64,000 nt of DNA, taken from an uncultured Desulfobulbaceae bacterium (GTDB taxonomy: Bacteria; Desulfobacterota; Desulfobulbia; Desulfobulbales; BM004). Both the position numbers and the translations under genes were made by a program. Positions 3,823 through 20,758 of this stretch are shown one piece after another. The stretch covers positions 1-64,000 of the forward strand of contig CAMYKS010000009.1 of assembly GCA_947259115.1 (NCBI GenBank), read 5' to 3'. Position 1 is the stretch's first letter, and each line of letters starts with the position of its first letter. A model generated the notes under the pieces. That model searched no databases, was not told where the DNA came from, and saw only the letters and a list, made by a program, of their open reading frames with translations.

Positions 3823-5472
3823 TTATACTTGTTCGCCTGAAGCAGCAGGTTCCTGGGACAGGCTAATGGTGATAGTTGTGCCTTTTCCCAACTCGGATTC
3901 AACATCGATGGTTCCTTGATGGGATTTAACAATTTCATAGACCACTGAAACACCCAGTCCGCTGTTCAGGCTGGCTTCCTTTTCAGGGGAAACCGTCTTC
4001 GTCGTAAAGAACGGTTCAAACATATGGGACCTGGTCTCCTCATCCATGCCGATGCCATTGTCCTGGATGGCAATTTCCACTCTTTTTTCTTGAGCAGATA
4101 AGCATGTGCTGATGACAATGGCGCCGGTGTCACTTTGTACGGCATCACAGGAATTGAGCAGCAGGGCTACGAGGGCCTGCTTTATTTTCTGGTCATCACA
4201 GCTTGCTTCAGGGGACTCGGGGGCAAGGTCAAGTTTTACCTCTATGTTGAGCAGATCGATCTGGTGCTGGACAAGACGCAGGGTTTCCCGCACCATGGTG
4301 TTGATATCATGTTTCTTGATCCGCGGCTTGGTGGGACGGGCAAACTGCAGCAACCCCCTGACAATTTCTCCGCAGCGGGCGGATTCGCTTTCAATGGTAT
4401 CAAGGTATTCTATGTATTTTGAATTTTTGTCGGGAAAAATATCTTCGCTCCTCTTCAGCATCAATTTGGCATAGGTACGGATGCCGGCAAGGGGGTTGTT
4501 GATCTCATGGGCAACTATGGCGGCAAGTCTTCCCATGGAAGCCATTTTTTCCCCCTGTATGGCATTTTCCTGGGCTCTTTGTAACTGCTCTGTACGCTCC
4601 TCGACAAGATCTTCAAGGGTCATGGTCCATTTTGTGTTTTCATCCCTGGCCTCTTTCAATTCATGGGTCATGGTGTTGAATGCTCTGGCAAAATCGCCTA
4701 TTTCATCAGGTGAAGGGGCATATATCTCAAAATCAAGGTCGCCTGCGGTCACTTTTTTTACACCGTTGGTAAGCCGATGCACCCGGCGGCTTATAAATTT
4801 ATCAATCAAGGCATAGCTTATGGTAATAATTGCCAGCAGGGCCAGAATGGTTGTAAATATAGTACGGTTTCTGGACTGGGTAACGGTCATAAGGGCCCGC
4901 TCCACATTTGTCCTGACTATCATACCGCCTATGACCTTTCTGGAAGAACCATGGCAGTGAAAACAATCCTTCTCATTGAGAATAGGCTCCATGACAATGA
5001 TATGTCTTTTGCCGTCAATCTGCGTCTCATAGGACTCCCGTAGAGAATCTCCGGACTGTAAAATGGAGCTCAGCGTTTCCAGGGGGCCACCGCTTAAAAT
5101 AGTATCGGATATATTTGTGTAGATCTTGTCCCTGTGCGTGGACCACGTGATGAGTTGATTGGAGTCGCAGATGAAAACTTCAATGCCTTCCATTTTTTCA
5201 CGTATATCCGTCAGGACCTTCTCAACTGCTCCACTGTCGCCTACCGACATGGGGTATTTGATGCCGGAGTATGTGGAGGCGGCAAGATCCATGCTGAGGG
5301 TTTCCATGAGTTGAATGGTGTCCTTTTTGCCGAAATGGAGATCCAGGGCAATCTCAACACCCATGACCAGGGAGATGCTGACGATTATGATCGTCATGAT
5401 CCTGTGGCTCAGGCTTTTCCTGATAAAATCAGAAAAGCGGTTCTTAATGATGGATTTAGCGAAAGTGGTCAT
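3823..5472 (-). CDS. Sensor histidine kinase with periplasmic CXXCH heme-binding motif, HAMP, HisKA and HATPase domains
   Basis: 'NEKDCFHCHGSS' in the periplasmic region; H-box 'AIVAHEINNPLAGIRTYAKLML'; G boxes 'DNGIGMDEETRSHMFEPFFTTK'. Confidence 0.85.
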   Translation of the reverse strand: MTTFAKSIIKNRFSDFIRKSLSHRIMTIIIVSISLVMGVEIALDLHFGKKDTIQLMETLSMDLAASTYSGIKYPMSVGDSGAVEKVLTDIREKMEGIEVFICDSNQLITWSTHRDKIYTNISDTILSGGPLETLSSILQSGDSLRESYETQIDGKRHIIVMEPILNEKDCFHCHGSSRKVIGGMIVRTNVERALMTVTQSRNRTIFTTILALLAIITISYALIDKFISRRVHRLTNGVKKVTAGDLDFEIYAPSPDEIGDFARAFNTMTHELKEARDENTKWTMTLEDLVEERTEQLQRAQENAIQGEKMASMGRLAAIVAHEINNPLAGIRTYAKLMLKRSEDIFPDKNSKYIEYLDTIESESARCGEIVRGLLQFARPTKPRIKKHDINTMVRETLRLVQHQIDLLNIEVKLDLAPESPEASCDDQKIKQALVALLLNSCDAVQSDTGAIVISTCLSAQEKRVEIAIQDNGIGMDEETRSHMFEPFFTTKTVSPEKEASLNSGLGVSVVYEIVKSHQGTIDVESELGKGTTITISLSQEPAASGEQV

Positions 5473-5505
5473 GTGTCTTATGCCCGCACAAAGTGATTAA
5501 GGAGA

Positions 5506-6012
5506 TTAATGCGCCCCGCCATGGATCAAAGGTTTATACTTGAAGGCTTTGACCCGTTCTGAAATATGGCATACCTCGCAATCCTTTTTGCTCATACTGC
5601 CGATTACTGCAGCGGGATCGCCTGTCCGCACGTGCTCTTCGCCGGGCCCGTGGCATACCTCACAGCCTGCGTTCTTAAGATGCGGGGTCTCTTCGATACT
5701 GATAAATCCACCGGGTCGGCCATAGCCTGTAGTATGGCAGGGATAACATTGCCTTATTTCTTCAGGAGTCAGATGTTTCATTTGTCTTTCAATACTCCGG
5801 AAAGATACGCTCTTTTTGGCATAGGTCATGAAATTGTCATACTCCTCGGGATGGCACTCCTTGCAAGCCAGTGAACCGACAAAGACACCGGCGCTATTTT
5901 GTTCTGTTCCCTGGGATGGCAAATGGGCTCCCAAAACCAGAAGAAGTATTAATGGTATCAGCAGGCCCCAATGGGGGTAGAGTTTTTGCACTGAATCTTT
6001 TCTTGTTTTCAT
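5506..6012 (-). CDS. Multiheme c-type cytochrome
   Basis: Four CXXCH motifs: CKECH, CYPCH, CEVCH, CEVCH; N-terminal signal/TM. Confidence 0.85.
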   Translation of the reverse strand: MKTRKDSVQKLYPHWGLLIPLILLLVLGAHLPSQGTEQNSAGVFVGSLACKECHPEEYDNFMTYAKKSVSFRSIERQMKHLTPEEIRQCYPCHTTGYGRPGGFISIEETPHLKNAGCEVCHGPGEEHVRTGDPAAVIGSMSKKDCEVCHISERVKAFKYKPLIHGGAH

Positions 6013-7386: not shown

Positions 7387-7974
7387 ATGAGAATGAAACC
7401 AATACATCAGAAAAGCCAGTTGATTTTAGAGCAGGAACAGCGTTTTATTAGAGATCTCTCGCTAAGGGTTCTCGATAAACCACAGCTCCATATCTGGATG
7501 ATTTTTATTCCAATAATTTTTGTTCATTTTTATTTTGAATGGCAGAAGTACAAAAACTGCAGCACCTCATTTAAAAAAAATTACATTATAACATTTAAAC
7601 GCGCCTTAGATGAAGCAGCCGCTTTTGTTCAGGATGGCAGGGAGCCCGATCTCGACACTCTGGTAAAGATGGCGGACACACCTGCTGGAGCACAGCAGAA
7701 ATTGGCTGAGTTATTTTCCGTTCTTATCGAGCATTATGAAGCCCTGCTGCGAGCAAACGGCAGTGATTACAAATCGTTAGTGCGTTCGGTTTACATAAAA
7801 CGTGCGAACTATCTTCTCTTCATCAACCAGCTTAACAACGCGGAAAAAAAGTTTAACGCCGCGCTCAAACCCCAACTTGAAAGCACAATTGATGATGCAA
7901 AGGATATTATCTGCGCAATTGAACGATATTCGGAAAAAATTCGCAGAAACGATGCCGAGGAAATTTTCGCATAA
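7387..7974 (+). CDS. Single-TM hypothetical protein, paralog of 12760-13377
   Basis: Shares 'KPQLHIWMIFIPIIFV...KYKN', 'VLIEHYEALLRANGSDYKSLVRS', 'NYLLF...LNNAEKKFNAAL..QL' with the ORF at 12760-13377. Confidence 0.75.
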   Translation: MRMKPIHQKSQLILEQEQRFIRDLSLRVLDKPQLHIWMIFIPIIFVHFYFEWQKYKNCSTSFKKNYIITFKRALDEAAAFVQDGREPDLDTLVKMADTPAGAQQKLAELFSVLIEHYEALLRANGSDYKSLVRSVYIKRANYLLFINQLNNAEKKFNAALKPQLESTIDDAKDIICAIERYSEKIRRNDAEEIFA

Positions 7975-8142: not shown

Positions 8143-9234
8143 CTAGTCTTTATTTTCCTCTTCTTCCACGGCCTCTTCAAGTTTCTTAATCTTTTTCTCA
8201 AGTGCTGCGAGTTTTTTGTTTACGCCGTCAAAATTATACCATTGCTGACCATTGGACGCTTCAACCGGACGGTTGGCAGCCAGGTCGGATGCATAAACCC
8301 TCCAGGAATCATCCCAGTTGGCCGGGTTTTTAAAGCCCAACAATCTCAGCTGCAGGTATGTAAGCGTGGAACGTGTGCCGGTCTGGCAGTAGCCAATGGT
8401 TCTTTTGTTCTTATCAAGGGAGCCAAATTTTTCCTGCAAAGTATCAGCATCAATAAATCCGGTCGCTTCCATCTTTTCGGTCTTTTTGTCCAGTTCCTTG
8501 AGCATGGTATCCTTGTGCGACACATTGATGGTTGTGTTCGGAACATGTCCGCCCCTGATGGCTCTCATGTCCTGGCCGTTATACTCCTTTTTTGAGCGTG
8601 AATCAATCATCTGTACGCCGGTAATAGAACCTGTGGCAACCCCGAGAATTTCGTCAGTTGTAGCCAAACGGCTTGCGACCACATTGGCTTTAAATGTCTT
8701 GGGTTCCTTTATTGTCGGGTTCTTTTCCAGGCGGAAGCCTGAATTACGCCAGGCTTCAAGGCCGCCGTCCATGAAATGCACCTTATCATGGCCCAGGTAT
8801 TCCATGACCCAGAAGCCCACCGAGGCATCGGTCAGGGTTTTTATATCACCATGATAGAAAACCACATGGGTGTTGTTGTCGATTCCTGCCTTACCCAGGA
8901 GTTTTTCATATTTTGACACATCAGTAAACACCCTTGCCGTTGAGTCGCGCAAAGCCTTTTTAACGCGTTTTCCCAGGCTGATGGCCCCGGGTATATGGCC
9001 CTTGGCGTAGTCCTTCAAGTCCCTGGAATCAATGACCACCCAGTCAGGTTTGCTAATGTTTTTCTCTAATGCTTCAGGCGTGATAAGCAGGTCAGGATTG
9101 GCCCACCCTGCAGCGCCTGCCAGCCCTGCAACCAGGAGTAAATATGCTCCTGCGACGATCAATGTTGTTAATTTTTTCTGCATAAGCTTTCCTCCAAAAT
9201 TTTTATTGTTATTTGCGGCACCTTCACCTGACAA
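8143..9234 (-). CDS. Exported sulfurtransferase with tandem rhodanese domains
   Basis: 'LITPEALEKNISKPDWVVIDSRDLKDYAKGHIPGA'; C-terminal active loop 'CQTGTRSTLTYLQLRLLGF'; N-terminal signal peptide. Confidence 0.85.
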   Translation of the reverse strand: MSGEGAANNNKNFGGKLMQKKLTTLIVAGAYLLLVAGLAGAAGWANPDLLITPEALEKNISKPDWVVIDSRDLKDYAKGHIPGAISLGKRVKKALRDSTARVFTDVSKYEKLLGKAGIDNNTHVVFYHGDIKTLTDASVGFWVMEYLGHDKVHFMDGGLEAWRNSGFRLEKNPTIKEPKTFKANVVASRLATTDEILGVATGSITGVQMIDSRSKKEYNGQDMRAIRGGHVPNTTINVSHKDTMLKELDKKTEKMEATGFIDADTLQEKFGSLDKNKRTIGYCQTGTRSTLTYLQLRLLGFKNPANWDDSWRVYASDLAANRPVEASNGQQWYNFDGVNKKLAALEKKIKKLEEAVEEEENKD

Positions 9235-9291: not shown

Positions 9292-9771
9292 TCACTTGGC
9301 AATTAAAACAGCCATCTCAGCATTGTTGGCCACTTCCCTGCTGATGCTGCCCATCCAAAGATTATGGAGCCTTTTGCCCCGTGATCCCATGACAATCATC
9401 TCAGCTTTTTCCTCCTGCGCTTTTTTCAGGATTTCCTCAGCTGGATGTCCCTGAACTGCCAGGGGTTTAATTCCTGAAAATCCCTGTTTTTCAAGGAGGT
9501 CTTTAAAATAGTTCAGCACCACTTCTGCCTTCTGATCCAGCTGCGCCTGGTGTTCAGTCCCCTGGAGGGACTCCTTCAAAGTTTTCATTTCAGAAGTACT
9601 GAGCAGTAAATCTCCCATAACGGAACGGCCTTGAGGTTTTTGGACATAGAGCAAGATAATGGTCTTCGGCACACAACCACCGCCCACACAATCACCCAGC
9701 AGGTTCTTCAAAGTTTCCACAACCTGTAGAGAGCCTTTGGTATCGTCAACCGCTATAAGAATTTTATTCAT
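9292..9771 (-). CDS. Universal stress protein (UspA) family
   Basis: 'MNKILIAVDDTKGS', 'EMIVMGSRGKRLHNLWMGSISREVANNAEMAVLI'. Confidence 0.85.
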   Translation of the reverse strand: MNKILIAVDDTKGSLQVVETLKNLLGDCVGGGCVPKTIILLYVQKPQGRSVMGDLLLSTSEMKTLKESLQGTEHQAQLDQKAEVVLNYFKDLLEKQGFSGIKPLAVQGHPAEEILKKAQEEKAEMIVMGSRGKRLHNLWMGSISREVANNAEMAVLIAK

Positions 9772-9781
9772 CCTTCATTCC

Positions 9782-9985
9782 CTATTCCTGGAGGCTCTTG
9801 TAATAGTCCTGCACCTCATCCGTAAGGCCCTCAATCTTCTCTTCAGCGGCGCCGCCATACCCGGCAGCTTCTACAGCGCCGAAATAACCGGGCTCAGTGC
9901 CGGTGTGCGCAGAAACTGCATAACCACCGCCAAATGCAAGGCCCCAAACCAAAATCGCCAGAATCAGCCATTGAATGCTCTTCAT
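9782..9985 (-). CDS. Small single-TM protein (67 aa) in the sulfur operon
   Basis: Hydrophobic N-terminus, acidic C-terminus; close spacing and same strand as neighbours. Confidence 0.65.
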   Translation of the reverse strand: MKSIQWLILAILVWGLAFGGGYAVSAHTGTEPGYFGAVEAAGYGGAAEEKIEGLTDEVQDYYKSLQE

Positions 9986-10000
9986 CGCAATCCCTCTCTG

Positions 10001-10192
10001 TTATTCGTCTTCTTCATCGTTATATAAATGCTCATACTGTTTTAAAAGATCGTCGGGCAACGCTTCCCCTTCTTCAAGCAGGTCAATGTTTTCACCGAAT
10101 CCAACTTCCAGAAAAGGCGGCACACTGTATCCCATCATGAAACCGGTAAAGCCGACAACGATAACTATCACCATCCATAGATTTTTATTCAT
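10001..10192 (-). CDS. Small single-TM protein (63 aa) in the sulfur operon
   Basis: 'MNKNLWMVIVIVVGFTGFMMGYSVPPFLEVGFGE' TM then acidic tail; co-directional, tightly packed. Confidence 0.65.
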   Translation of the reverse strand: MNKNLWMVIVIVVGFTGFMMGYSVPPFLEVGFGENIDLLEEGEALPDDLLKQYEHLYNDEEDE

Positions 10193-10215: not shown

Positions 10216-10467
10216 TTAAGCTTTTTGAATTGTGAAGATGAATTTAGACCCGTTCCGCTGTTGATCGATAATCGGGTTGCCTTCATTTGTGCACATGGCA
10301 GAGATGGATTCGGCTGAAGATGGGTTGTCAAAGGCCAGTTCAAGTTTGTCGCCGCTGTGCAGTTTTTCCAAAATTTTCTTGGTGTAGAGCTGTGGGTGGG
10401 GACAGACATAGCCGCAAACATCCAATTCATACAGTCCGGGTCCTTTTTGGTTGAATTTCATTGCCAT
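10216..10467 (-). CDS. TusA-family sulfurtransferase-like protein
   Basis: 'YELDVCGYVCPHPQLYTKKILEKLHSGDKLELAFDNPSS', TusA CPxP-like motif (CPHP). Confidence 0.85.
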   Translation of the reverse strand: MAMKFNQKGPGLYELDVCGYVCPHPQLYTKKILEKLHSGDKLELAFDNPSSAESISAMCTNEGNPIIDQQRNGSKFIFTIQKA

Positions 10468-10490: not shown

Positions 10491-11999
10491 TTATAAGTCA
10501 AAATCGATATTGGCCATTTCTCGGGCCATTTTTCGTTCCGTATACCAGTTGAAAAACTTGACGCCGATAAAGGCGCCACCGATCATGCCGAGACCGAAAG
10601 ACCAGCCGGAGACGTCGCCGTTGGCGGTTCTGACAAAAAAGGCACCAACATTACAACCAAGCGCCAACCTGGAGCCGATCCCCATGAGTGCGCCGCCGAT
10701 CAGGGCCCATATTGCCAATTCCTTTGTGGGCATCTTCCACTTAAATTCGTTATTCATCAGGGCCATGACAGCAGCGCCGCCGATGAGTGCCACCGACATC
10801 CAGTCAGCCGGGTTGATGGCCGGACTGGGGATGCCGTTAACCCAACCGAAATAAATATTGTCCATATTGTTAAAACCCAGTTTCTGGGCCATCCAGCCGA
10901 CCCACTGGGCCTCCTGGGTGGTGACATACCAGTAGCCCGGGTCAAAGACCGTACCTTTGGCCGAGATGCCATAATCAAAGCCGATGCGCTGCAGGATGGT
11001 GCCGGCATTCTTGACACCGAATTTCATGCGCAGACCCTCTATAACAAACATCTGCAAGCCGCAGGCAATACCAAGAAACAGGCCGGCAATGGCAGTACGC
11101 TTGGAAGATATTATCATGGCCCAGAAACCGCGGATGTGATCTGCAAAGCCGGGACTGCGTCCTTCACGGCTTTGCAGATCAAGAACATACCGTTTCCTGG
11201 ACCAGAAAATGTAAACCACGGCCAACAGTAGAATGGCCGGCAGAACAACGCCCACGAAGGTATTGGCAAACAGGGCGCCGACCAGGGTATGGTCCTCAAA
11301 ACCGAGGAGCCTGGCAAAGGTAATTACCGGCTGTTCCCACACATATCCGGCCAGGTATTGATCAACCCAGCCGTCAGATACATTGATGGAGCTTGGCAGT
11401 CCCTTGGTGAGCGCTGCTTCGGCCCAGGATTTGGGCACCAGCTTGTTGGCCCAGCCGCCAACGTCGACAAAGGCTGACTGGGTCACACTGATCGAAAGAA
11501 TGACCAGCATTGAGACACCGTTGCCTTCACCGGCCTTATACAGGGAACCGGAGGCACAGCCGCCGGCAAAGACCATGCCGATTCCGAATATTAACCCGGC
11601 AATAACGGCATGGACGGACCAGGGCGCGGCATGGAAGGTGGACCAACCGGTCGAAGCCACAAGGGAGGAGGTGATTGAGAATAAAACGGTGGCAATCATG
11701 ATGCCGACCACCATACGCGGCACCCCGACCGCAAAAAGGTCCCTGAATGCAGAAGCAAAACAGAACCGGCCATACTGCAGACACATACCATATATAAAGC
11801 CGAACCAGAGATAAGCGGAAAGATACAGGTAATACTCATGCATAGCATAAGTAGCAACGCTTACCAGGCCAAAAAAGCCAACAATGATATAAACCCACAT
11901 AATGTGTTTCCGCGACACAGCCTGAGCAATTGGCTTGCTGTCACTACAGCAATCTGCTGGCTTTGATTCCGGAATTGTTTGTGTGACTATTGCGTCCAC
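10491..11999 (-). CDS. YeeE/YedE family sulfur (thiosulfate-type) transporter
   Basis: 'GMVFAGGCASGSLYKAGEGN' and 'GIGSRLALGCNVGAFF' conserved Cys motifs; multi-TM. Confidence 0.85.
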   Translation of the reverse strand: MDAIVTQTIPESKPADCCSDSKPIAQAVSRKHIMWVYIIVGFFGLVSVATYAMHEYYLYLSAYLWFGFIYGMCLQYGRFCFASAFRDLFAVGVPRMVVGIMIATVLFSITSSLVASTGWSTFHAAPWSVHAVIAGLIFGIGMVFAGGCASGSLYKAGEGNGVSMLVILSISVTQSAFVDVGGWANKLVPKSWAEAALTKGLPSSINVSDGWVDQYLAGYVWEQPVITFARLLGFEDHTLVGALFANTFVGVVLPAILLLAVVYIFWSRKRYVLDLQSREGRSPGFADHIRGFWAMIISSKRTAIAGLFLGIACGLQMFVIEGLRMKFGVKNAGTILQRIGFDYGISAKGTVFDPGYWYVTTQEAQWVGWMAQKLGFNNMDNIYFGWVNGIPSPAINPADWMSVALIGGAAVMALMNNEFKWKMPTKELAIWALIGGALMGIGSRLALGCNVGAFFVRTANGDVSGWSFGLGMIGGAFIGVKFFNWYTERKMAREMANIDFDL

Positions 12000-12076
12000 T
12001 GCTACCTCCTTTACTGTTTCTAATTGTCTCTAGTTGGTTTACGCCTGTTTTTTATAAAGTTTACAATCATTGCTTG

Positions 12077-12091
12077 CAATGTGTGTGCCAC
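12077..12091 (-). promoter_or_regulatory. Sigma54 (-24/-12) promoter for the YeeE operon
   Basis: Minus strand TGGCAC-ACACA-TTGC, exact consensus spacing. Confidence 0.8.
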
Positions 12092-12204
12092 ATTGTGGTA
12101 CTTGATCTCGGATTATTTATTTGTAAACTTCAAAAAATCTCCCTGCATAACCAGTCAGATAGGCCTCAGGCTTTATTGGCAACTCTTTTTCAATGTCTGC
12201 TATT

Positions 12205-12234
12205 CCCGATTGTGTCATGAACAGTTTTAAACAA
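12205..12234 (-). repeat. Solo degenerate terminus of the MITE-like element
   Basis: CCCGATTGTGTCATGAACAGTTTTAAACAA vs element right end (reverse complement) CCCGAATATTTCATGAACAGTTTTGAAAAA: 25/30 by eye. Confidence 0.5.
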
Positions 12235-12236
12235 TG

Positions 12237-12284
12237 TGTTCCAAACTGAACACGGTGGCAGCCGAAGTTGTCCCAAACGGGACA
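12237..12284. promoter_or_regulatory. Tandem palindromic upstream activator sites
   Basis: TGTTCCAAACTGAACA (12237-12252) and TGTCCCAAACGGGACA (12269-12284), 32 bp apart, upstream of the sigma54 promoter. Confidence 0.7.
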
Positions 12285-12500
12285 GTTTTGCATGCCGTTA
12301 TTGCAGCATCCACAGACTCTTTTGGGTTAGGGATGAGGTGCTGTCGCTTCTATTCACAATTGAAAAGTGATTGTTTCTTAATAAAAATGGAGGCCTGCCG
12401 GGAAGCAGGCCCCCGGGGGGGGGAGCAATGAAGGTATTTATTTGCCTTCACTGGGGAACATATTCCGGTTGAGGGACCAGAATAAAATTATTGGACTAGT

Positions 12501-12760
12501 CCGCATTTTTCACGAGTCGAGATGCCGGATAGACAAAGTGTAAGTCGTTGGAGCTATACTTTAGTATGCGAAACGCCTTACACTGCAGTTTATAAGGATG
12601 TATCGGCTTGCCCGAAGGGTGAACAGTTTTGAAAAAAATCTATTCAGTCACCTGGTACGAACTGTAACCGGACAAAGACACTGGAAATATAAAATTTAAA
12701 TGACAAAAACAGATATTTAAATTAATTTTTCAAAACTGTTCATGAAATATTCGGGCTAGT
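12501..12760 (+). repeat. MITE-like dispersed repeat, copy 2
   Basis: Near-identical to 3432-3747 minus the 56-bp duplication; flanked by CTAGT on both sides. Confidence 0.8.
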
Positions 12761-13377
12761 TATGATGTCATAAATATCTGTTCAGCCTCGGTCCTCCGTA
12801 GTTGTTCCGAGCCGACTGCCATTTTTTGTATTGTGTCGCCAACACCGTCCTGTTCATTGCTCAGTTGGGGAGCGAGGGCCTGATTCAACTTCTTCTCTGC
12901 CTGGTTAAGCAGGTTGGAAAAAAGCAGGTAGTTTATACGGCTGTTGCCATAGGCTGATCTCACCAGTGATTCATAGCTGTCTCCCTTGGCCTTAAGAAGA
13001 CAGGTGTAATGCTCAACCAGCACAGTCAGGAATTCTGCATATTTTTCCTTGGCCTTACCTTTCAAGTCAGCCTGCCGGGCAATGGCTTCTGCATCAGGTT
13101 TTCTTCCTTGGACCAAGGCATCCTCCGCCTCATTAAGGGCTTTTTCGTGGCTCAGCAGAAAATAGTCAGAAAAGGCCCTGCGGCCATTTTTGTATTTCAT
13201 CAGGTCCTGGATGAAAAAAACAAAAAGGAAGGGGATGAGTATCATCCAGGTATGCAGTTTAGGCTTACTGAAAACCTGGCGGCCAAGTTGCGCGGCAAAT
13301 TTTCTTTCCCGGGCAAGGATTATTTCTTTTTTGTCGTTTAGACTGACCATAGTAAATACTCTTCTGCCTTTGTACAA
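12760..13377 (-). CDS. Single-TM hypothetical protein, paralog of 7387-7974
   Basis: 'KPKLHTWMILIPFLFVFFIQDLMKYKN', 'VLVEHYTCLLKAKGDSYESLVRSAY', 'NYLLFSNLLNQAEKKLNQALAPQL'. Start probably at 13350. Confidence 0.75.
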   Translation of the reverse strand: MYKGRRVFTMVSLNDKKEIILARERKFAAQLGRQVFSKPKLHTWMILIPFLFVFFIQDLMKYKNGRRAFSDYFLLSHEKALNEAEDALVQGRKPDAEAIARQADLKGKAKEKYAEFLTVLVEHYTCLLKAKGDSYESLVRSAYGNSRINYLLFSNLLNQAEKKLNQALAPQLSNEQDGVGDTIQKMAVGSEQLRRTEAEQIFMTS

Positions 13378-13456
13378 AGGATCATAAAGGTGTTTTAGTT
13401 AAAGAAAAGCTCAGTTCATGGCTTTGGTAAGTTTTGGCAAGGATGAACGCCTGCAG

Positions 13457-13804
13457 TTAGGGATCCATCATGTACCGCCAACCAAATGCCAGAAGGACAA
13501 AACATAGAGCCATGCCGGAGAAAAAGGCTTTGGTGGGCCCGTAATCATCTCTCCCGGAGTGTATGAACGAATCGCGCAGGTAATATTCACCATCATATGA
13601 TCCCACGCTTTCTTCATACATGTAGGCTGCTGAGTTTATATCCCTTTCTTCTACGATCTGAATAATCTCTTTATATATCGGGATGTTGTTTTTTATATAG
13701 GGACCGACAACCCAGCCGAAAGACCAAACAAGAAACGCAACAAATAAAAATGTTCCCCAGGAGCGAAATTTAGAGCTATTGGTATTGGTTGTTGAGCCAT
13801 TCAT
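13457..13804 (-). CDS. Small two-TM membrane protein of unknown function
   Basis: 115 aa; hydrophobic segments 'FLFVAFLVWSFGWVVG' and 'FFSGMALCFVLLAFGW'. Confidence 0.55.
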   Translation of the reverse strand: MNGSTTNTNSSKFRSWGTFLFVAFLVWSFGWVVGPYIKNNIPIYKEIIQIVEERDINSAAYMYEESVGSYDGEYYLRDSFIHSGRDDYGPTKAFFSGMALCFVLLAFGWRYMMDP

Positions 13805-13831
13805 TTCGAGTTTCCTTCATATAAAAATGCA

Positions 13832-13867
13832 CCCACTATCCGGGATTTTCACCTCCCGGATAGTGGG
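13832..13867 (-). terminator. Hairpin between the YeiH-type gene and the 115-aa gene
   Basis: Perfect 14-bp inverted repeat CCCACTATCCGGGA...TCCCGGATAGTGGG with a nearby T-run on the minus strand. Confidence 0.7.
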
Positions 13868-13878
13868 TTTTAGGCGTT

Positions 13879-15642
13879 CTAGATTGTCGCTGTAAGCCCA
13901 GGAAATACCAGATAAAACATGATATAGGCCATGAGCAGTGTGAGTACGAGATTTAATGATTGACCAAAAACATACAGAGTAAGAGGTTTGCCGCCTTTGA
14001 AATGGTGTCTCAATTCGCGGAAATTGGTTGCCAGGCCGATGCTGACAAAAGACAGGGAGAAAAACCATCCCCTGAACAGGTCGCTCATGCCCTTGATGGC
14101 ACCCTGGTCGACCATTGCCCGCCCGAGGCCACCGGCCTCTGCATTGTAACTGGAATAGACCAGCGAAAAAATCACGGAGGCAGCGATAAAGCCGAGGACA
14201 AATTTCGGAAAGCGAAACCAGATTTCAGAGAGACCGACCTTGGCGCCTGTTTCTGCAACTTCCACCCTGGTTGTGAAGTAGAGAGCCAGGAAGAAGGCAA
14301 TGACACCGATAAGGACGTTTTGGATCATTTTAATGGTGGCGGCAACGTAGAGGGCCTTTTCCCCTAAGAAGGCGCCGGCCGCAGCAACAGCGCCGGAGGC
14401 ATCAATGGTGCCCCCCATCCAGGCGCCACCGAGGATCATCTGCTTATCGACCGGAAAGGTTGCTTTAATAACAGCCGGCATAACGATCATCATGATTGCC
14501 GTAAAAACCAGGGAAAGCCCGACAGCCAGTGTCAGTTCCTCTTTCTTGGCCCGGCAGGCGGAGGCGGCGGCAATTGCGGCAGACACGCCGCAGACCGACA
14601 TGTCGGAGCAGATAACGGCATTCAGTCGCTTGGAAGGCATTTTAATGATTTTCTGACCAAACCAATAGGTAATGAGCCAGACGGTCGGGGTAACAACCCA
14701 GGCGACAAAGATACCGGCGGTACCAATGGTGATAATTTTTTCAAATAAAATTTTGGCACCCAGCAGAACAAGACCGGTCTTGATATAATATTCGGTCTGA
14801 ACTGCCGGCATGGCCCATTTCGGGGTGCCGATCGTGTTGCTGACTAACATGCCGATAAAGATGGCCCAAAATGCATAGCCGATGCCGTAATGTTTCATGG
14901 TTGCCTGGGAGCTGAAAAGCCAGGCAACAACCGTTATTGCGAACACAAAAATGAAGCCAATGAGAAACTTATGTATGGGTATGCCCATGAAGACCATGGG
15001 GATGCCGAAGAAGAAAGCGAAAAACACCCCGAGAAGTATGAGCCACCAGATCTGGTTATAGGGTTTGGCTTTGGTTTTTGCCTTGGCTTTTCCGGCAAAA
15101 AGTTTTGCGTCCCGCCATTCACTGATGGCAACTGCTGCCGCAGCGTTGAGTGACTCATCCCTGAAGCCGGCGGCTTCCGCCGCCGCTTCTGCCATCTCGG
15201 CAGCGGCAAAGGTTGTTTTTTCGGTTGCCTTTTTTGTTTCATACTTTGCCACGGCCGAGGCTTTCTTGGACGCTGCCAATTCCTCATCCATTACAAAGGC
15301 CTGCAAAGGATTATTTGTCCACCCATGAGGTTTTTTTGCGAAGTTCTTCATCCATTTGCCGGCGTCGATACCTGTGGCTTTGACACTCTTTTTGGCATCT
15401 GAAAGTTGGTACCAGGCTATGGTCTTTATGGCGGATGTCCTTGTTGCCGCATCCCCATATTTCGCCTGGGCTTCGTTTATTTTGGTTTTCATGTCTCCAC
15501 TGTGGGGGAAATAAACAAGCATTCCCGCAATGAGAATTATAAAACCAAGCCAAATGGCCCACCAGTCCTCCTTTTTCCACAACTCCGACCATTCCCACTT
15601 GCCGATATCAACGACAATGTCTTTTCCGGAATTCTCTGCCAT
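13879..15642 (-). CDS. YeiH/UPF0324-type putative sulfate (sulfur anion) exporter family transporter
   Basis: Multi-TM; 'FEKIITIGTAGIFVAWVVTPTVWLITYWFGQK', 'CSDMSVCGVSAAIAAASACRAKKEELTLAVGLSLVF', 'GGTIDASGAVAAAG'. Start chosen at MAENSGKD. Confidence 0.8.
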   Translation of the reverse strand: MAENSGKDIVVDIGKWEWSELWKKEDWWAIWLGFIILIAGMLVYFPHSGDMKTKINEAQAKYGDAATRTSAIKTIAWYQLSDAKKSVKATGIDAGKWMKNFAKKPHGWTNNPLQAFVMDEELAASKKASAVAKYETKKATEKTTFAAAEMAEAAAEAAGFRDESLNAAAAVAISEWRDAKLFAGKAKAKTKAKPYNQIWWLILLGVFFAFFFGIPMVFMGIPIHKFLIGFIFVFAITVVAWLFSSQATMKHYGIGYAFWAIFIGMLVSNTIGTPKWAMPAVQTEYYIKTGLVLLGAKILFEKIITIGTAGIFVAWVVTPTVWLITYWFGQKIIKMPSKRLNAVICSDMSVCGVSAAIAAASACRAKKEELTLAVGLSLVFTAIMMIVMPAVIKATFPVDKQMILGGAWMGGTIDASGAVAAAGAFLGEKALYVAATIKMIQNVLIGVIAFFLALYFTTRVEVAETGAKVGLSEIWFRFPKFVLGFIAASVIFSLVYSSYNAEAGGLGRAMVDQGAIKGMSDLFRGWFFSLSFVSIGLATNFRELRHHFKGGKPLTLYVFGQSLNLVLTLLMAYIMFYLVFPGLTATI

Positions 15643-15711
15643 GCTCGCTCTCCTTTTTAAAATTAGTTCGGGAATACAACACTTTTCAACTTCAGTATAG
15701 ACCCAAAACTT

Positions 15712-15738
15712 TACAAGGCTTATACCACAATGTGGCAC
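15712..15738 (-). promoter_or_regulatory. Putative sigma54-like promoter with overlapping CCACATTGTGG palindrome upstream of the YeiH-type gene
   Basis: Minus strand GTGCCACATTGTGGTATAAGCCTTGTA; GTGCCACATTGTGGTA is a 16-bp exact match (in opposite gene-relative orientation) to 12086-12101. Confidence 0.45.
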
Positions 15739-15827
15739 GTCATAATAAACCTGCTTTTGCAATAAACAGACCAGCTTTGCTGTATAAGGAAGAAAAAAGA
15801 AATGTGCCGGATAACTGCAGCCGTCAC

Positions 15828-17516
15828 TTAGGGTGATAGAACGGTCACAATGGTTCTGTAGCGGAAGACTTGTGTCTGTTGGTAAAATTTCTCAACTGAT
15901 CCTGGATTTTTTTGCTGGAGGTATTGGTTGAGTAGTTCTACCGGGTCCCGGCTGCTGATAATAACCTGTGGGTTTGTCCCATTAGGCACAGCAGGAGGAT
16001 AAAAGGGCGGCCTGCTGAGTTCCCAGGTAAAACGCAGGGATGATGATTTTTTGTTTTGATCCTCCGGTGGCAACACAGGCCATTGCTGAGATAAACGTAG
16101 CTGTCTGCTGGTATACAGGTCCAGGATAGGCAGAACTGCTCCGGTGCTGCCCGCAGATTCATGCTGCGGCAACAGATGGACATCAACTGTATTAAACGGT
16201 AAGGTGTTAAGGTATTGCCCTGCTTTTTTGAGATTCATCATGCTGGTCTGTTGCAGGAAAGGCTTATAGGCGCCAAACAGGACAACCATGGCAGACAGCA
16301 CGGCACAATAAGAACAAAATCGTTTCAAGGACTGGTCCCGAATCACGTTCAGTCCATAGGATGCCATCAGGGTAAAAAGAGGCAATAGGGGAACAATATA
16401 TCGTATCCTCTTGATCTGCAAAGGAAAAACAAAACCGATAAAGCAGGCTGCCACCAAAAACCGGTAATTCCTGTTTCGCACAGCCCGGTAAATTCCATAG
16501 ATAACAAACAGAGTAATAAAGGGATGGATCTGGAAGAAGAAGGTGGAAATATACCCCTCCTGCCAACGCTTCAAACCTTGCCGTTGGAATGTGCCAAGAA
16601 TAGCCATCTGCTCTCGGATCACTTCGTATTTACTGAAAAAAATAACACCCCAGAGAATGGCGGCACCAATAACGATGATCAGTGAACTGCGGATTATTAT
16701 GGCAGGCCTTTGCCGCAGGTGGACCCCGGCAATTACCGGCAGCATTCCTGCCAGCATAGGCCAGGTGGAAAATTTTACAGACAGCGCACACACTATGCTG
16801 ACGGCAGCAACTCCAAGCCACAGAGGTCCGCCGTGCTGCATTGATTTAATAAATGAGAAAACCGTCAAAATCATGAAAAACATGGTGCCGATATCGACCA
16901 GCATGAGAGGTGCCTGGGTGGGCAGGTAGGGAATCCCCAGGAGCAGCAATCCGGCATGGAAACCGGTCTCAGCATCCCAAAGAATTTTTCCGACATGGTA
17001 GGTGAGGACCAGCGAGAATCCAAAGAGGAGGCTGTTGAACGTCTGGACCGCGAGCCGGAATTCACCAAATAATTTAAAGAGAAGACCATACAAAAACGGC
17101 ATCAGCGGTAAATCAGTCCAGGGTGCAATGGCGTGTCCCCATTCTTTCAAGAAAAAGTCCATGCCGTTTTCAGAAAGATATTTTGCCTGCAGAAAATAGC
17201 GCGAAGCATCCAGCAGCATCTCCGGGGTGCTCCAGAGAAAGGCTGAGGTTATGAATCCGGCAATGAATAGAAATAATGATGGATAACGCTCGGGAATGGA
17301 CGATTTTGATAGCCATGCTGCCAGAAGGAGCAGTGGAACAAGGTACAGGAAAAGGGTGACCGGGCTGGTCCCTGCAAAAACCCAGCGCCAACTGGTTAGG
17401 GTGTTGTCATCCAAAAAACGCAGAAGATAAAGAATGGGCAGTGCAAACAGCGTTAAAAAGGATGCAAGCAGGTATGCTTCCAGGCGGTTAAGATAACTTT
17501 TTCCCATATCGTACAA
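15828..17516 (-). CDS. Glycosyltransferase family 39 (ArnT/PMT-like) membrane protein
   Basis: Many TMs; periplasmic 'WSTPEMLLDASRYFLQAKYLSENGMDFFLKEWGHAIAPWTDLPLMP'. Confidence 0.65.
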   Translation of the reverse strand: MYDMGKSYLNRLEAYLLASFLTLFALPILYLLRFLDDNTLTSWRWVFAGTSPVTLFLYLVPLLLLAAWLSKSSIPERYPSLFLFIAGFITSAFLWSTPEMLLDASRYFLQAKYLSENGMDFFLKEWGHAIAPWTDLPLMPFLYGLLFKLFGEFRLAVQTFNSLLFGFSLVLTYHVGKILWDAETGFHAGLLLLGIPYLPTQAPLMLVDIGTMFFMILTVFSFIKSMQHGGPLWLGVAAVSIVCALSVKFSTWPMLAGMLPVIAGVHLRQRPAIIIRSSLIIVIGAAILWGVIFFSKYEVIREQMAILGTFQRQGLKRWQEGYISTFFFQIHPFITLFVIYGIYRAVRNRNYRFLVAACFIGFVFPLQIKRIRYIVPLLPLFTLMASYGLNVIRDQSLKRFCSYCAVLSAMVVLFGAYKPFLQQTSMMNLKKAGQYLNTLPFNTVDVHLLPQHESAGSTGAVLPILDLYTSRQLRLSQQWPVLPPEDQNKKSSSLRFTWELSRPPFYPPAVPNGTNPQVIISSRDPVELLNQYLQQKNPGSVEKFYQQTQVFRYRTIVTVLSP

Positions 17517-17555
17517 ATAAATTGTAACGGTTTATTAAATCTTGTTTCAGTTATG

Positions 17556-17570
17556 TGGCACTCACCTTGC
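17556..17570 (+). promoter_or_regulatory. Sigma54 (-24/-12) promoter for the histidine kinase/NtrC operon
   Basis: TGGCAC-TCACC-TTGC, exact consensus; ATGTGGCACTCACCTTGCAAGC nearly identical to the YeeE promoter. Confidence 0.8.
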
Positions 17571-17643
17571 AAGCATAATGCCATAAATATCTACACAATG
17601 AGAAGGATATTTACCAACTGTGCGTTATCCGGCGCATTCCCTT

Positions 17644-17691
17644 TGTTCCATTATGCACAACTCGGCATATAGGGTTGTCCCAAATGGGACA
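17644..17691. promoter_or_regulatory. Tandem palindromic activator sites at the histidine kinase gene
   Basis: TGTTCCATTATGCACA (17644-17659) and TGTCCCAAATGGGACA (17676-17691), 32-bp spacing as at 12237-12284. Confidence 0.6.
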
Positions 17692-17712
17692 GTTTGGTAC
17701 AGTCAAAGGCAA

Positions 17713-19410
17713 ATGGAAGGACTCTACTCTTTTTCAAACACTTTATTTTCCAGAGAGTTCCTGCTTAATTACCACATCGGCGAGGAGTTTCTGATAGGAC
17801 TACTCTGTCTGCTGATTGCGGTCAGAGCATTCAGGACAAGCGGCATTCAGGTCAGCGGTAACCATGTCAAGGGCAGCAGGATTTTCCTGGTGGGCGCCAG
17901 TTTCCTGATCCTTGGCAGCAGCAGCGTGATCCATGGGTTAATCCATGCCAGCCACTCCAACCTGAATCTGCTCTACCAGACACTTTTGGCTTACAGCCTT
18001 GGGCTGTTCATTTTGATTATTGCCATTTCGGTGGAGAATCCGCGCAACAAGGTGGCCTTGCCGCTGCTCTACATCCCGCTGCTTGGACTGCTGCACCCGG
18101 CAGCCTACGAACAGTTCCCCCTATTCGGACAATTCCGGCCTCTGGTCTGGATCCTGATCGCTTACCTGTCCGGCATGGTCTGCATTCTCTATATCGGTAC
18201 ATTCTATCGCCGGCGGAGCAAACGCTTCCTTTTTTCCGCCTTAGGGCATCTTATAATCTGCATTGGTGCCATTTTTCTCTTCTTTCCGGCGCAGATCGGC
18301 TCGACAGTCTGGCTGCACGGCCATATCATGAGGCCAGTAGGCTTTATCATTTTATTTTTCAGCATGAGCCGCGGGGAATTATTAAAAATGGAGGGCTCTA
18401 TCCTCTACAGGGCCCTGGCAGCCTTTTCCATTCTTGCGGCCATACCCCTGCTTTTTTTCGGGACCTTTGTCTTCTATGATAATATCTCGCCGGTCACCAT
18501 AATCGGTCGCCGGTTTATTATTTTTCTTCTCCTGCTCATCACTCTCATCTCCGGTCTGCTGTTCGGGCTGGGTATGATAATCAGGCTGATCAAGCCCATT
18601 CTGCAGCTGAAAAACTCGGTGGACAACATGGTGGGTGAGGGTATGGTCAGGCAGATACCCATCAAGAGCTATGACGAGATAGGGGAGCTTTCCGGGGCAT
18701 TTAATGACATGCTGAGCAGGCTGGATAATGCCATCGAGGAGCAGGAGAGAATGTGCCGTCTGGCTGCCACCGGTGAGCTGGCCGCGACCCTTGCCCACGA
18801 AATAAAGAACCCGCTCAATGCCATCGGCGGTGCGGCAACCTATATCGGCAAAAACACTAAAGGCAGCCTGGCCAAGGAGTTTGTTTCAGTCATTACCAGC
18901 GAGGTGGCCCGTATTAATAAGTTGACCACCACGCTGCTGAGCTTTTCCAAAACCGCTGCCCCGAATCCGGAGCCGAACGACCTGAATAAGGTTGTAAGTG
19001 ATTCCCTTTCCCTGCTGAGCAAAGAGTCGCCGGGTCTTAATGTCACTCTTAAGGAAGAACTGGCAGAAGACCTGCCATTGAAGGACTTTGACTACAACCA
19101 GATCAAACAGGTCATTATTAACCTGTTGATCAATGCCCATGACGCAGTCGGTGAAAATGGCATCATCACGATAAAAACCTGGAAGAATAAAAAGGGAACC
19201 TACCTGGCTGTTGAGGATAACGGCAGCGGTATCTCTTCGGAAATTATCCATAATATTTTTAACCCGTTTTTCACCACCAAGACCCGCGGCACCGGGCTCG
19301 GCCTGGCCGTATCAAAAAGGATAGCCAGAGAACACGGCGGCGACCTGACAGTTACAAGCACCCCGGGTGAAGGGAGCACATTCACCCTGGAGCTTAAGGA
19401 TCGGAGATAA
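17713..19410 (+). CDS. Membrane sensor histidine kinase (NtrB-like)
   Basis: Multi-TM N-terminus, HAMP-like, 'ATLAHEIKNPLNAIGGAATYIG', 'FNPFFTTKTRGTGLGLAVSKRIA'. ORF opens at 17620; M at 17713 preferred. Confidence 0.85.
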   Translation: MEGLYSFSNTLFSREFLLNYHIGEEFLIGLLCLLIAVRAFRTSGIQVSGNHVKGSRIFLVGASFLILGSSSVIHGLIHASHSNLNLLYQTLLAYSLGLFILIIAISVENPRNKVALPLLYIPLLGLLHPAAYEQFPLFGQFRPLVWILIAYLSGMVCILYIGTFYRRRSKRFLFSALGHLIICIGAIFLFFPAQIGSTVWLHGHIMRPVGFIILFFSMSRGELLKMEGSILYRALAAFSILAAIPLLFFGTFVFYDNISPVTIIGRRFIIFLLLLITLISGLLFGLGMIIRLIKPILQLKNSVDNMVGEGMVRQIPIKSYDEIGELSGAFNDMLSRLDNAIEEQERMCRLAATGELAATLAHEIKNPLNAIGGAATYIGKNTKGSLAKEFVSVITSEVARINKLTTTLLSFSKTAAPNPEPNDLNKVVSDSLSLLSKESPGLNVTLKEELAEDLPLKDFDYNQIKQVIINLLINAHDAVGENGIITIKTWKNKKGTYLAVEDNGSGISSEIIHNIFNPFFTTKTRGTGLGLAVSKRIAREHGGDLTVTSTPGEGSTFTLELKDRR

Positions 19411-19414
19411 GAAT

Positions 19415-20758
19415 ATGGCACATGCAATTCTCTTGGTTGATGATGAAGTAAACACGCTCAAGGTGCTGTCCGCTGCCCTGCAAAACAGCACAACCCAAGT
19501 CGAGACGGCACGGTCAGGCGAAGAGGCGCTGGAGCGAATTAAAAAGCAAAAATACGATCTGGTTATTTCCGATTTTAAAATGGGCGGCATGAGCGGCGAA
19601 GAGCTGCTGGAGAAGACCAAGACCTTTAATCCCGACCTACCCTTTATTCTGCTCACTGCATACGGCACAATCGAGCTGGCTGTTAATGCCATGCGCAAGG
19701 GCGCTTACACCTACCTGACAAAGCCGGTGAATATCAACCTGCTGGAATCCATTGTCGGCGATATTTTGCAGAACGGCGCTGCAAAAGTCATTGAAGCTGA
19801 TGCCAGCTTGTTCCAGTACCTGAATATCATCGGCAAGACCCCTGTTATGCAGGAGGTCTTCACGCTCATCAAGCGGGTGAGCAAAACAGACGCCAACATC
19901 CTGGTACTGGGTGAGTCGGGCACCGGCAAGGAACTTGTGGCCCGGGCCATACATTATACATCCCTGCGGGCTGACAAGCCTTTTATACCCATAGACTGCA
20001 CGACTATTCCGGGCGAACTCATGGAAAGTGAACTGTTCGGCTATGAAAAGGGGGCCTTCACCTGTGCCGATGAAAGAAAACTTGGACTGATCGAGATGGC
20101 CCAGGGCGGCACAACTTTTTTTGACGAGATCGGCGACCTCGATTTTACCCTGCAGAAAAAACTGCTACGTTTCCTGCAGGAAAAGGAAATACGCAGAATT
20201 TCAGGTAAAAAGAAAATCCAAGTTGATGTCAGGGTGCTCTCAGCAACAAACAGGGACATTGAAGCATCCCTTGAAAGCGGCGAGTTCCGGTCGGATCTTT
20301 TTTACCGGCTCAATGTTATCTCCATCCGTATCCCACCCCTGCGGGAAAGGATGGATGATATACCCTTGCTGGCAAATCACTATTTTGAATATTTCCGGCA
20401 AAAGAACAAAAAGGAAATCCGCGAGATTGACCAAGAGGCCATGAATGCCCTGAAAAGCTACGACTGGCCGGGAAATGTGCGAGAACTGGAGAATATGATG
20501 GAGCGAGCTGTCATTCTCTGTCAGTATGACACCATAAACGTTGAATGTCTGCCAAAGAAAATGAAATTTTTCGCCGGGGAAGAGTATCCTGAGGTCAGGG
20601 AATTCAACCTGCCGGAAATAGAGAAGAGGACCATTCTCAAGGCCCTTGATAAGACATCCTGGAATCAGTCCCGGGCTGCGGGACTTCTCGGCATAAGCCG
20701 CAAACAGTTGCGTACCAAGATGAAAAACCTGGAATTGCTCCCTACATCTGAAAAATAA
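19415..20758 (+). CDS. NtrC-family sigma54-dependent response regulator (GAFTCA variant)
   Basis: Receiver 'AILLVDDEVNTLKVL', Walker A 'GESGTGKE', 'GAFTCADE', C-terminal Fis-type HTH 'NQSRAAGLLGISRKQLRTKMK'. Confidence 0.9.
   Translation: MAHAILLVDDEVNTLKVLSAALQNSTTQVETARSGEEALERIKKQKYDLVISDFKMGGMSGEELLEKTKTFNPDLPFILLTAYGTIELAVNAMRKGAYTYLTKPVNINLLESIVGDILQNGAAKVIEADASLFQYLNIIGKTPVMQEVFTLIKRVSKTDANILVLGESGTGKELVARAIHYTSLRADKPFIPIDCTTIPGELMESELFGYEKGAFTCADERKLGLIEMAQGGTTFFDEIGDLDFTLQKKLLRFLQEKEIRRISGKKKIQVDVRVLSATNRDIEASLESGEFRSDLFYRLNVISIRIPPLRERMDDIPLLANHYFEYFRQKNKKEIREIDQEAMNALKSYDWPGNVRELENMMERAVILCQYDTINVECLPKKMKFFAGEEYPEVREFNLPEIEKRTILKALDKTSWNQSRAAGLLGISRKQLRTKMKNLELLPTSEK

Follow-up and report, generated by a model that had tools for sequence, protein, structure and literature searches.

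A putative local sigma54 regulon for sulfur-transfer genes, with a symmetric promoter element, in an uncultured Desulfobulbaceae bacterium

Several described systems are close to the locus analyzed here, a gene cluster around positions 12,077 to 17,691 of a 64,000-nucleotide stretch (the window) of contig CAMYKS010000009.1 (assembly GCA_947259115.1) from an uncultured Desulfobulbaceae bacterium. The cluster contains an operon starting with the sulfur transporter gene yeeE and, further along, the genes for a histidine kinase and an NtrC-type regulator. The D. vulgaris protein DVU2106 is an activator of the sigma54-dependent orp operons, which are divergent, and at the same time a repressor of its own gene, whose sigma70 promoter overlaps the DVU2106 binding site (PMC3897727). 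The local regulons of NtrC-type activators in Desulfovibrio comprise one to four operons per activator, with TGT/ACA half-sites, promoters of the type tGGcacg/tTGCt and a few downstream sites (PMC4641369). Sets of yeeE, tusA and dsrE, named YTD cluster or DsrEFH type II, are linked to sulfur disproportionation or oxidation in three papers (PMC12998232, PMC13293266, PMC13047784), and the passages searched mention no regulator, kinase or sigma factor for the YTD cluster. In Desulfolithobacter, YTD proteins were more abundant during thiosulfate disproportionation (PMC9751629). For sigma70 promoters of E. coli it has been reported that a pseudo-symmetric sequence can seat the polymerase in two orientations (PMC12825309); no mention of sigma54 was found in that paper.

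Most probably, the genes for sulfur transfer in this cluster form a local NtrC-type sigma54 regulon with a dedicated regulator, and such a regulon, combined with an unusual, putatively bidirectional sigma54 promoter, is apparently undescribed. It shares with the DVU2106/orp system a sigma54 activator with palindromic sites, divergent sigma54 operons and a site over the regulator's own sigma70 promoter, here sigma70-like and predicted. However, the cluster with DVU2106 as its cognate activator is related to cell division, whereas here a kinase/response-regulator pair is present, the targets belong to sulfur transfer, and a sigma54 promoter faces the regulator operon. The small number of operons, the half-sites, the promoter type and the downstream sites of the Desulfovibrio regulons all have counterparts here; the TGT-ACA spacing is 9, 11 or 12 bp there, but 10 bp here, and a word search of the text of that study returned no rhodanese, YedE or thiosulfate targets. 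The YTD cluster has yeeE/yedE and tusA in common with the window, and eight relatives have a tusA/90-aa/56-aa/DsrE-like set beside the same kinase. The window genome, in contrast, has no dsrE-like gene, nor are the conserved hypothetical genes of DsrEFH type II found at the locus, which is not filed as a YTD cluster because of the missing dsrE-like gene. The difference from the E. coli promoters is that two sigma54 promoters are fused at their -12 core, with an enhancer on one side.

The putative regulatory pair is encoded by two adjacent genes:

17713 to 19410, plus strand: histidine kinase with a multi-helix N-terminus, HAMP, HisKA and HATPase_c domains, its ATG fixed by alignment
19415 to 20758, plus strand: NtrC-type response regulator with REC, AAA+ and Fis-type helix-turn-helix domains, kinase gene directly upstream

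The domains of the regulator are well matched (PF00072, 2e-26; PF00158, 3e-66; PF02954, 3e-14). An alternative kinase start, GTG at 17620, was dropped in view of in-frame stops upstream of the aligned ATG in four relatives (G001, G004, G006, G008). The genome encodes RpoN (TIGR02395, 426 bits, above the cut-off) and DsrA. Among the features by which an NtrC-type regulon is recognized, the domain set, an adjacent kinase, -24/-12 promoters with upstream palindromes and rpoN in the genome are found together. The first putative target has the following features:

10491 to 11999, minus strand: yeeE/yedE-type sulfur transporter (PF04143, 4e-39)
10216 to 10467, minus strand: tusA sulfur carrier (PF01206, 9e-19)
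12076 to 12090, minus strand: yeeE sigma54 (-24/-12) promoter TGGCACACACATTGC from a pattern scan, predicted start about 12064
12237 to 12252: weaker putative activator site TGTTCCAAACTGAACA, exactly 32 bp from the strong site
12269 to 12284: strong putative activator site TGTCCCAAACGGGACA, its center at about -212 from the predicted yeeE start

The yeeE promoter core lies in the 22-bp stretch ATGTGGCACACACATTGCAAGC (minus strand, 12072-12093). It agrees at 20 of 22 positions with ATGTGGCACTCACCTTGCAAGC upstream of the kinase (plus strand, 17554-17575), and these two contain the only exact TGGCAC-N5-TTGC promoters in the 64-kb window. An earlier note on this DNA had described this near-identity as two differences over 22 bp; the two promoters and both palindrome pairs with 32-bp spacing lie where it placed them, and every sequence quoted in it was found. 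The relatives used for comparison are draft genomes, with the window genome as G000. A sigma54 promoter precedes all nine aligned yeeE orthologs with usable upstream sequence, and in each of these nine regions a site matching at 10 or more of 12 positions lies upstream of the promoter. Most relatives have a second site at a distance of 31-32 bp from the strong one; yeeE paralogs (48-52% identity) are without palindromic sites. In G006 a 57%-identical yeeE occupies the regulated locus under the conserved promoter (L121:749-2263), and a 92%-identical copy lies on another contig (L154).

The region between the kinase and the divergent, "outward" gene is more complex:

15828 to 17516, minus strand: PMT_2-type membrane glycosyltransferase-like protein, first outward gene (PF13231, 2e-6; syntenic in relatives)
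17556 to 17570, plus strand: kinase-facing sigma54 promoter TGGCACTCACCTTGC, predicted start about 17582
17569 to 17583, minus strand: outward sigma54 promoter TGGCATTATGCTTGC, reading the 15828-17516 gene, predicted start about 17557
17556 to 17583: symmetric 28-bp element TGGCA-N6-TTGCAA-N6-TGCCA, two opposed promoters with one -12 core
17644 to 17659: weak putative activator site TGTTCCATTATGCACA, exactly 32 bp from the strong site, 9/12 matches
17676 to 17691: strong putative activator site TGTCCCAAATGGGACA, 37 bp upstream of the kinase ATG
17675 to 17703, plus strand: weak sigma70-like promoter TTGTCC-N17-TACAGT, its -35 hexamer being the left arm of the strong palindrome

The outward promoter, which had previously been overlooked, overlaps the kinase-facing promoter on the opposite strand, and TTGCAA is common to both. 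Symmetric core elements that would allow two orientations, a feature of bidirectional bacterial promoters, are present at 17556-17583. This exact geometry occurs in five of the six genomes of the window's genus; the sixth, G008, has TGACA as outward -24 element and keeps the kinase-facing half. Among 395 genomes of the phylum, the window locus is the single place where it was found. The strong site is identical in five of the six genomes. Relative to the start predicted for the outward promoter, the palindromes at 17644 and 17676 lie at about -94 and -126, the ordinary upstream position of an enhancer. The placement of the kinase sites downstream of the promoter, as described before, therefore concerns only the kinase-facing half, which is confined to the genus; for the conserved outward promoter they lie upstream. 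An IHF-like consensus between sites and promoters was not detected with a simple pattern.

The specificity of the palindrome was analyzed at several levels. The pattern TGTYCC-N5-GNACA has seven matches in the window, compared to 0.15 in shuffled sequences. In the 3.99-Mb genome the exact sequence TGTCCCAAAYGGGACA matches twice, at the yeeE and kinase loci, and TGTSCC-N4-GGSACA matches three times (12269, 15975 and 17676), always in the cluster, with no match of the reversed control. In G004, G006, G007, G008, G010, G011 and G039 every match of the latter pattern is on a contig with the kinase and/or yeeE; the lone outlier is in G001. The scan of genome and relatives envisaged earlier thus shows a palindrome confined to the cluster within the genome and recurring at the same two loci in relatives. 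A contig search that started from the regulator returned mostly generic NtrC proteins (best 51%), with the palindrome in none of 80 such loci (1.19 Mb), and was superseded by the whole-genome searches. The third match had also been missed previously:

15975 to 15990: third palindrome TGTCCCATTAGGCACA, within the glycosyltransferase-like gene at its 3' end

That palindromes and promoter look-alikes are products of chance or coding constraint has a negligible probability, since shuffles and genome-wide controls exclude chance at the two main loci; this explanation stands for the 15975 site only, which corresponds to codons for VPNGT and has counterparts in just two relatives, G008 (one mismatch) and G010 (perfect). 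It is a possible site for the downstream gene yeiH, but because it is coding and kept in two relatives only, it is not taken as a proven one.

Of 258 genomes of the order, 23 encode an ortholog of the kinase; in the sample of 395 phylum genomes, the window's own genome is the only one with it. Twenty-one kinase regions from 13 genera with at least some upstream sequence were compared, using dinucleotide shuffles as controls. The outward TGGCA-N6-TTGC promoter is present in 17 of them (shuffle mean 0.12, maximum 1) and TGTSCC-N4-GGSACA in 13 (shuffle mean 0.003), the palindromes lying between outward promoter and kinase. In contrast, the kinase-facing promoter was found in 6/6 genomes of the window's genus and in 0/15 regions outside it (shuffle mean 0.09). 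As the outward promoter is the one conserved beyond the genus, the ancestral design would consist of outward promoter plus enhancer. Judged from the alignments, the kinase-facing half was added in a single genus, and all six genomes retain it despite diverged flanks. When distances from the strongest site were scanned, 32 bp scored highest for the yeeE regions, for the kinase regions of all genomes, and for those outside the genus. The spacing agrees with dimers that bind in pairs, separated by three helical turns.

NtrC-type activators typically have their sites in pairs, three turns from each other, upstream of sigma54 promoters. This layout, together with the one narrow distribution and position shared by motif, kinase and targets, makes it very unlikely that the palindromes belong to another regulator and that the kinase/regulator pair is a mere neighbor. 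In favor of such a view, a second, unrelated palindrome regulon (TRCCACAWTGTGGYA) also touches yeeE:

12086 to 12100: different palindrome TGCCACATTGTGGTA, overlapping the yeeE -24 element and a possible operator of a second regulator

Palindrome TRCCACAWTGTGGYA occurs, with at most one mismatch, at 31 places in the window genome (control: one place) and 12-24 times per genome in the window's genus (controls 0). It lies on the yeeE -24 element throughout the genus and, in the window, also upstream of yeiH (15723-15737), and it may mark a second regulator of yeeE. A small gene for a Cys-rich helix-turn-helix protein (MqsA/XRE-like) is found near this palindrome in three genomes, and its product may be the regulator in question.

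The second putative target, the outward unit, varies in its gene content. In the window's genus it starts with the PMT_2-type gene; in the window and in G008 the gene of a YeiH-like transporter comes next:

13879 to 15762, minus strand: YeiH-like putative sulfur-anion transporter, likely start 15642 (PF03601, 2e-43)
15713 to 15727, minus strand: degenerate sigma54-like yeiH promoter TGGTATAAGCCTTGT, preceded by TGCCACATTGTGGTA (15723-15737)

Better promoters precede yeiH in G008 (L125:8456) and G079 (L128:1521). The outward unit consists of tusA and the PMT gene in G010, of tusA and a secreted rhodanese in G011; in G017 and G019 a rhodanese gene takes this place. The operon of families f10, f11 and f15 contains tusA (or a Cys-less TusA-like gene), genes for proteins of 90, 56 and 100 amino acids, the last of them DsrE-like, and then PMT and yeeE. 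A TusA-like protein under the outward promoter of L170 (G171) lacks the catalytic Cys (GLIPPQ for GLLCPxP). The DsrE-like protein has an invariant MSYC, within a conserved MSYC(D/E)HS in the set of eight relatives. Because it remains just under the cut-off of Pfam DsrE (E=3e-4) and a profile search against PDB gave no match, synteny and the conserved Cys serve as further grounds for its identification. Of 253 genomes of the order, eight have the dsrE-like gene, in every case beside the kinase; likewise, all ten genomes with a yeeE at least 75% identical to that of the window contain the kinase. The earlier note's proposal of a local sigma54 sulfur regulon tied to the neighboring NtrC-type regulator is therefore supported by the genome-wide specificity, by the conservation of promoter and sites in 13 genera and by the strict association of the kinase with both this type of yeeE and the dsrE-like gene, and we infer that the regulator binds the sites.

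Several points weigh against this regulon. The outward gene of the window itself encodes a glycosyltransferase-like and not a sulfur protein. The relatives share descent, and their counts are therefore not independent. Three of the 15 kinase regions outside the genus are without a clear outward promoter (L172, L174 and L177, with only 280 bp available for L174). The weak kinase-side palindrome, present in the window as reported before, has no conserved counterpart in the five further genomes of the genus, where 5-8 of 12 positions match. In the window's genus only, the regulator has GAFTCA instead of GAFTGA in the sigma54-contact loop, while the other orthologs have GAFTGA, GAFSGA or GSFTGA; changes to GAFTDA and GAFTHA at that loop position are listed as retaining activity (PMC4641369). 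The recognition segment ISRKQLRTKM of nearly all regulator orthologs also occurs in a non-syntenic regulator of Thermodesulfobacterium (L027), and thus the segment alone does not identify the site. L027 was ruled out as an ortholog by its different kinase and its lack of sites.

The most likely mode of action, deduced from family knowledge and sequence, would be as follows. A signal at the membrane kinase, presumably a sulfur species, would lead to phosphorylation of the NtrC-type regulator. The activated regulator would bind the TGTCCC-N4-GGGACA palindromes paired 32 bp apart, loop to the sigma54 polymerase and remodel it at two conserved outputs. One would be the yeeE-tusA-usp-rhodanese operon, the other the unit divergent from the kinase, i.e., the glycosyltransferase-like gene and probably yeiH in the window, and tusA, rhodanese or tusA/dsrE-like operons in relatives. 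In the genus, the symmetric element joins the outward promoter to one facing the kinase, and the same enhancer may thus also drive or tune the kinase/regulator operon.

Two designs come into question for this putative autoregulation. An activator-repressor design as in the Desulfovibrio orp cluster is plausible, at somewhat less than even confidence: the sites would activate the outward and yeeE promoters only, the regulator would repress its own sigma70-like promoter, and the kinase-facing sigma54-like sequence would be minor or inactive. The overlap of the strong palindrome with the sigma70-like promoter would point to negative rather than positive autoregulation. TTGTCC-N17-TANNNT or a near match is found at the identical position in five of the six genomes of the genus, 8-9 nt before the kinase ATG, which has no clear Shine-Dalgarno sequence, compatible with a near-leaderless message. 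The conservation of the outward promoter alone beyond the genus and the precedent of DVU2106 (PMC3897727) argue in the same direction. However, the hexamers are weak (8-9/12) and were not flagged by a consensus scan, and the kinase-facing TGGCA-N6-TTGC is kept in all six genomes while its flanks diverged.

To the other design, positive autoregulation, we give tentative credence, a little short of an even balance. The polymerase would seat on the symmetric element either way, and the regulator bound to its right would act on two units, as an upstream activator of the outward gene and as a downstream activator of the kinase operon. The symmetric element in five genomes, the retained kinase-facing half in the sixth and the single occurrence among the phylum genomes are in agreement with this design, and sigma54 activators that act 40-70 bp downstream of promoters have been reported in D. 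vulgaris (PMC4641369). Against it, the kinase-facing promoter is missing from the orthologous loci outside the genus, and the kinase would be poorly served by a 131-nt leader that lacks a clear Shine-Dalgarno sequence. A combination of the two designs is also conceivable. A more far-reaching conjecture, which we regard as rather doubtful, is that the element is a true bidirectional enhancer-controlled promoter, at which one bound activator would fire outward from upstream sites and kinase-ward from downstream sites, so that polymerase orientation would switch between effector and sensor; it would have arisen in one genus upon loss or replacement of the sulfur-transfer genes at the ancestral outward promoter.

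The remaining genes of the yeeE operon are:

10001 to 10192, minus strand: 63-aa small membrane protein, conserved beside tusA (similar open reading frames in L130 and L194)
9782 to 9985, minus strand: 67-aa small membrane protein, conserved before usp (similar open reading frames in L128 and L194)
9292 to 9771, minus strand: universal stress protein, usp (PF00582, 1e-18; syntenic in relatives)
8143 to 9234, minus strand: exported double rhodanese, likely start 9183 (PF00581, 9e-29; syntenic)

The YeeE protein stays below the cut-offs of the NCBIfam equivalogs for the thiosulfate transporter TsuA (111 bits versus 400, and 65 versus 645). A second histidine kinase, predicted to have a Mcp40H-20/Tll0287-like sensor, is encoded at 3823-6012; it has a CFHCHG stretch and a cytochrome c554-like neighbor, with synteny in G004 and G007. 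At 7387-7974 and 12760-13377 lie genes for two related proteins, each of about 200 amino acids and without a Pfam match, and a further copy is found near the cluster in G008 (L125:14460-15038).

Genes of the YTD/DsrEFH type rank high among the candidates for sulfur disproportionation or oxidation in sulfate-reducer lineages. The cluster described here adds a candidate kinase, activator, binding site and promoters in 13 genera, which are testable in cultured relatives. With such a specific candidate at hand, it can be tested directly which sulfur species acts as the signal. In addition, the symmetric sigma54 element would be a natural test case for the bidirectionality of enhancer-dependent promoters.

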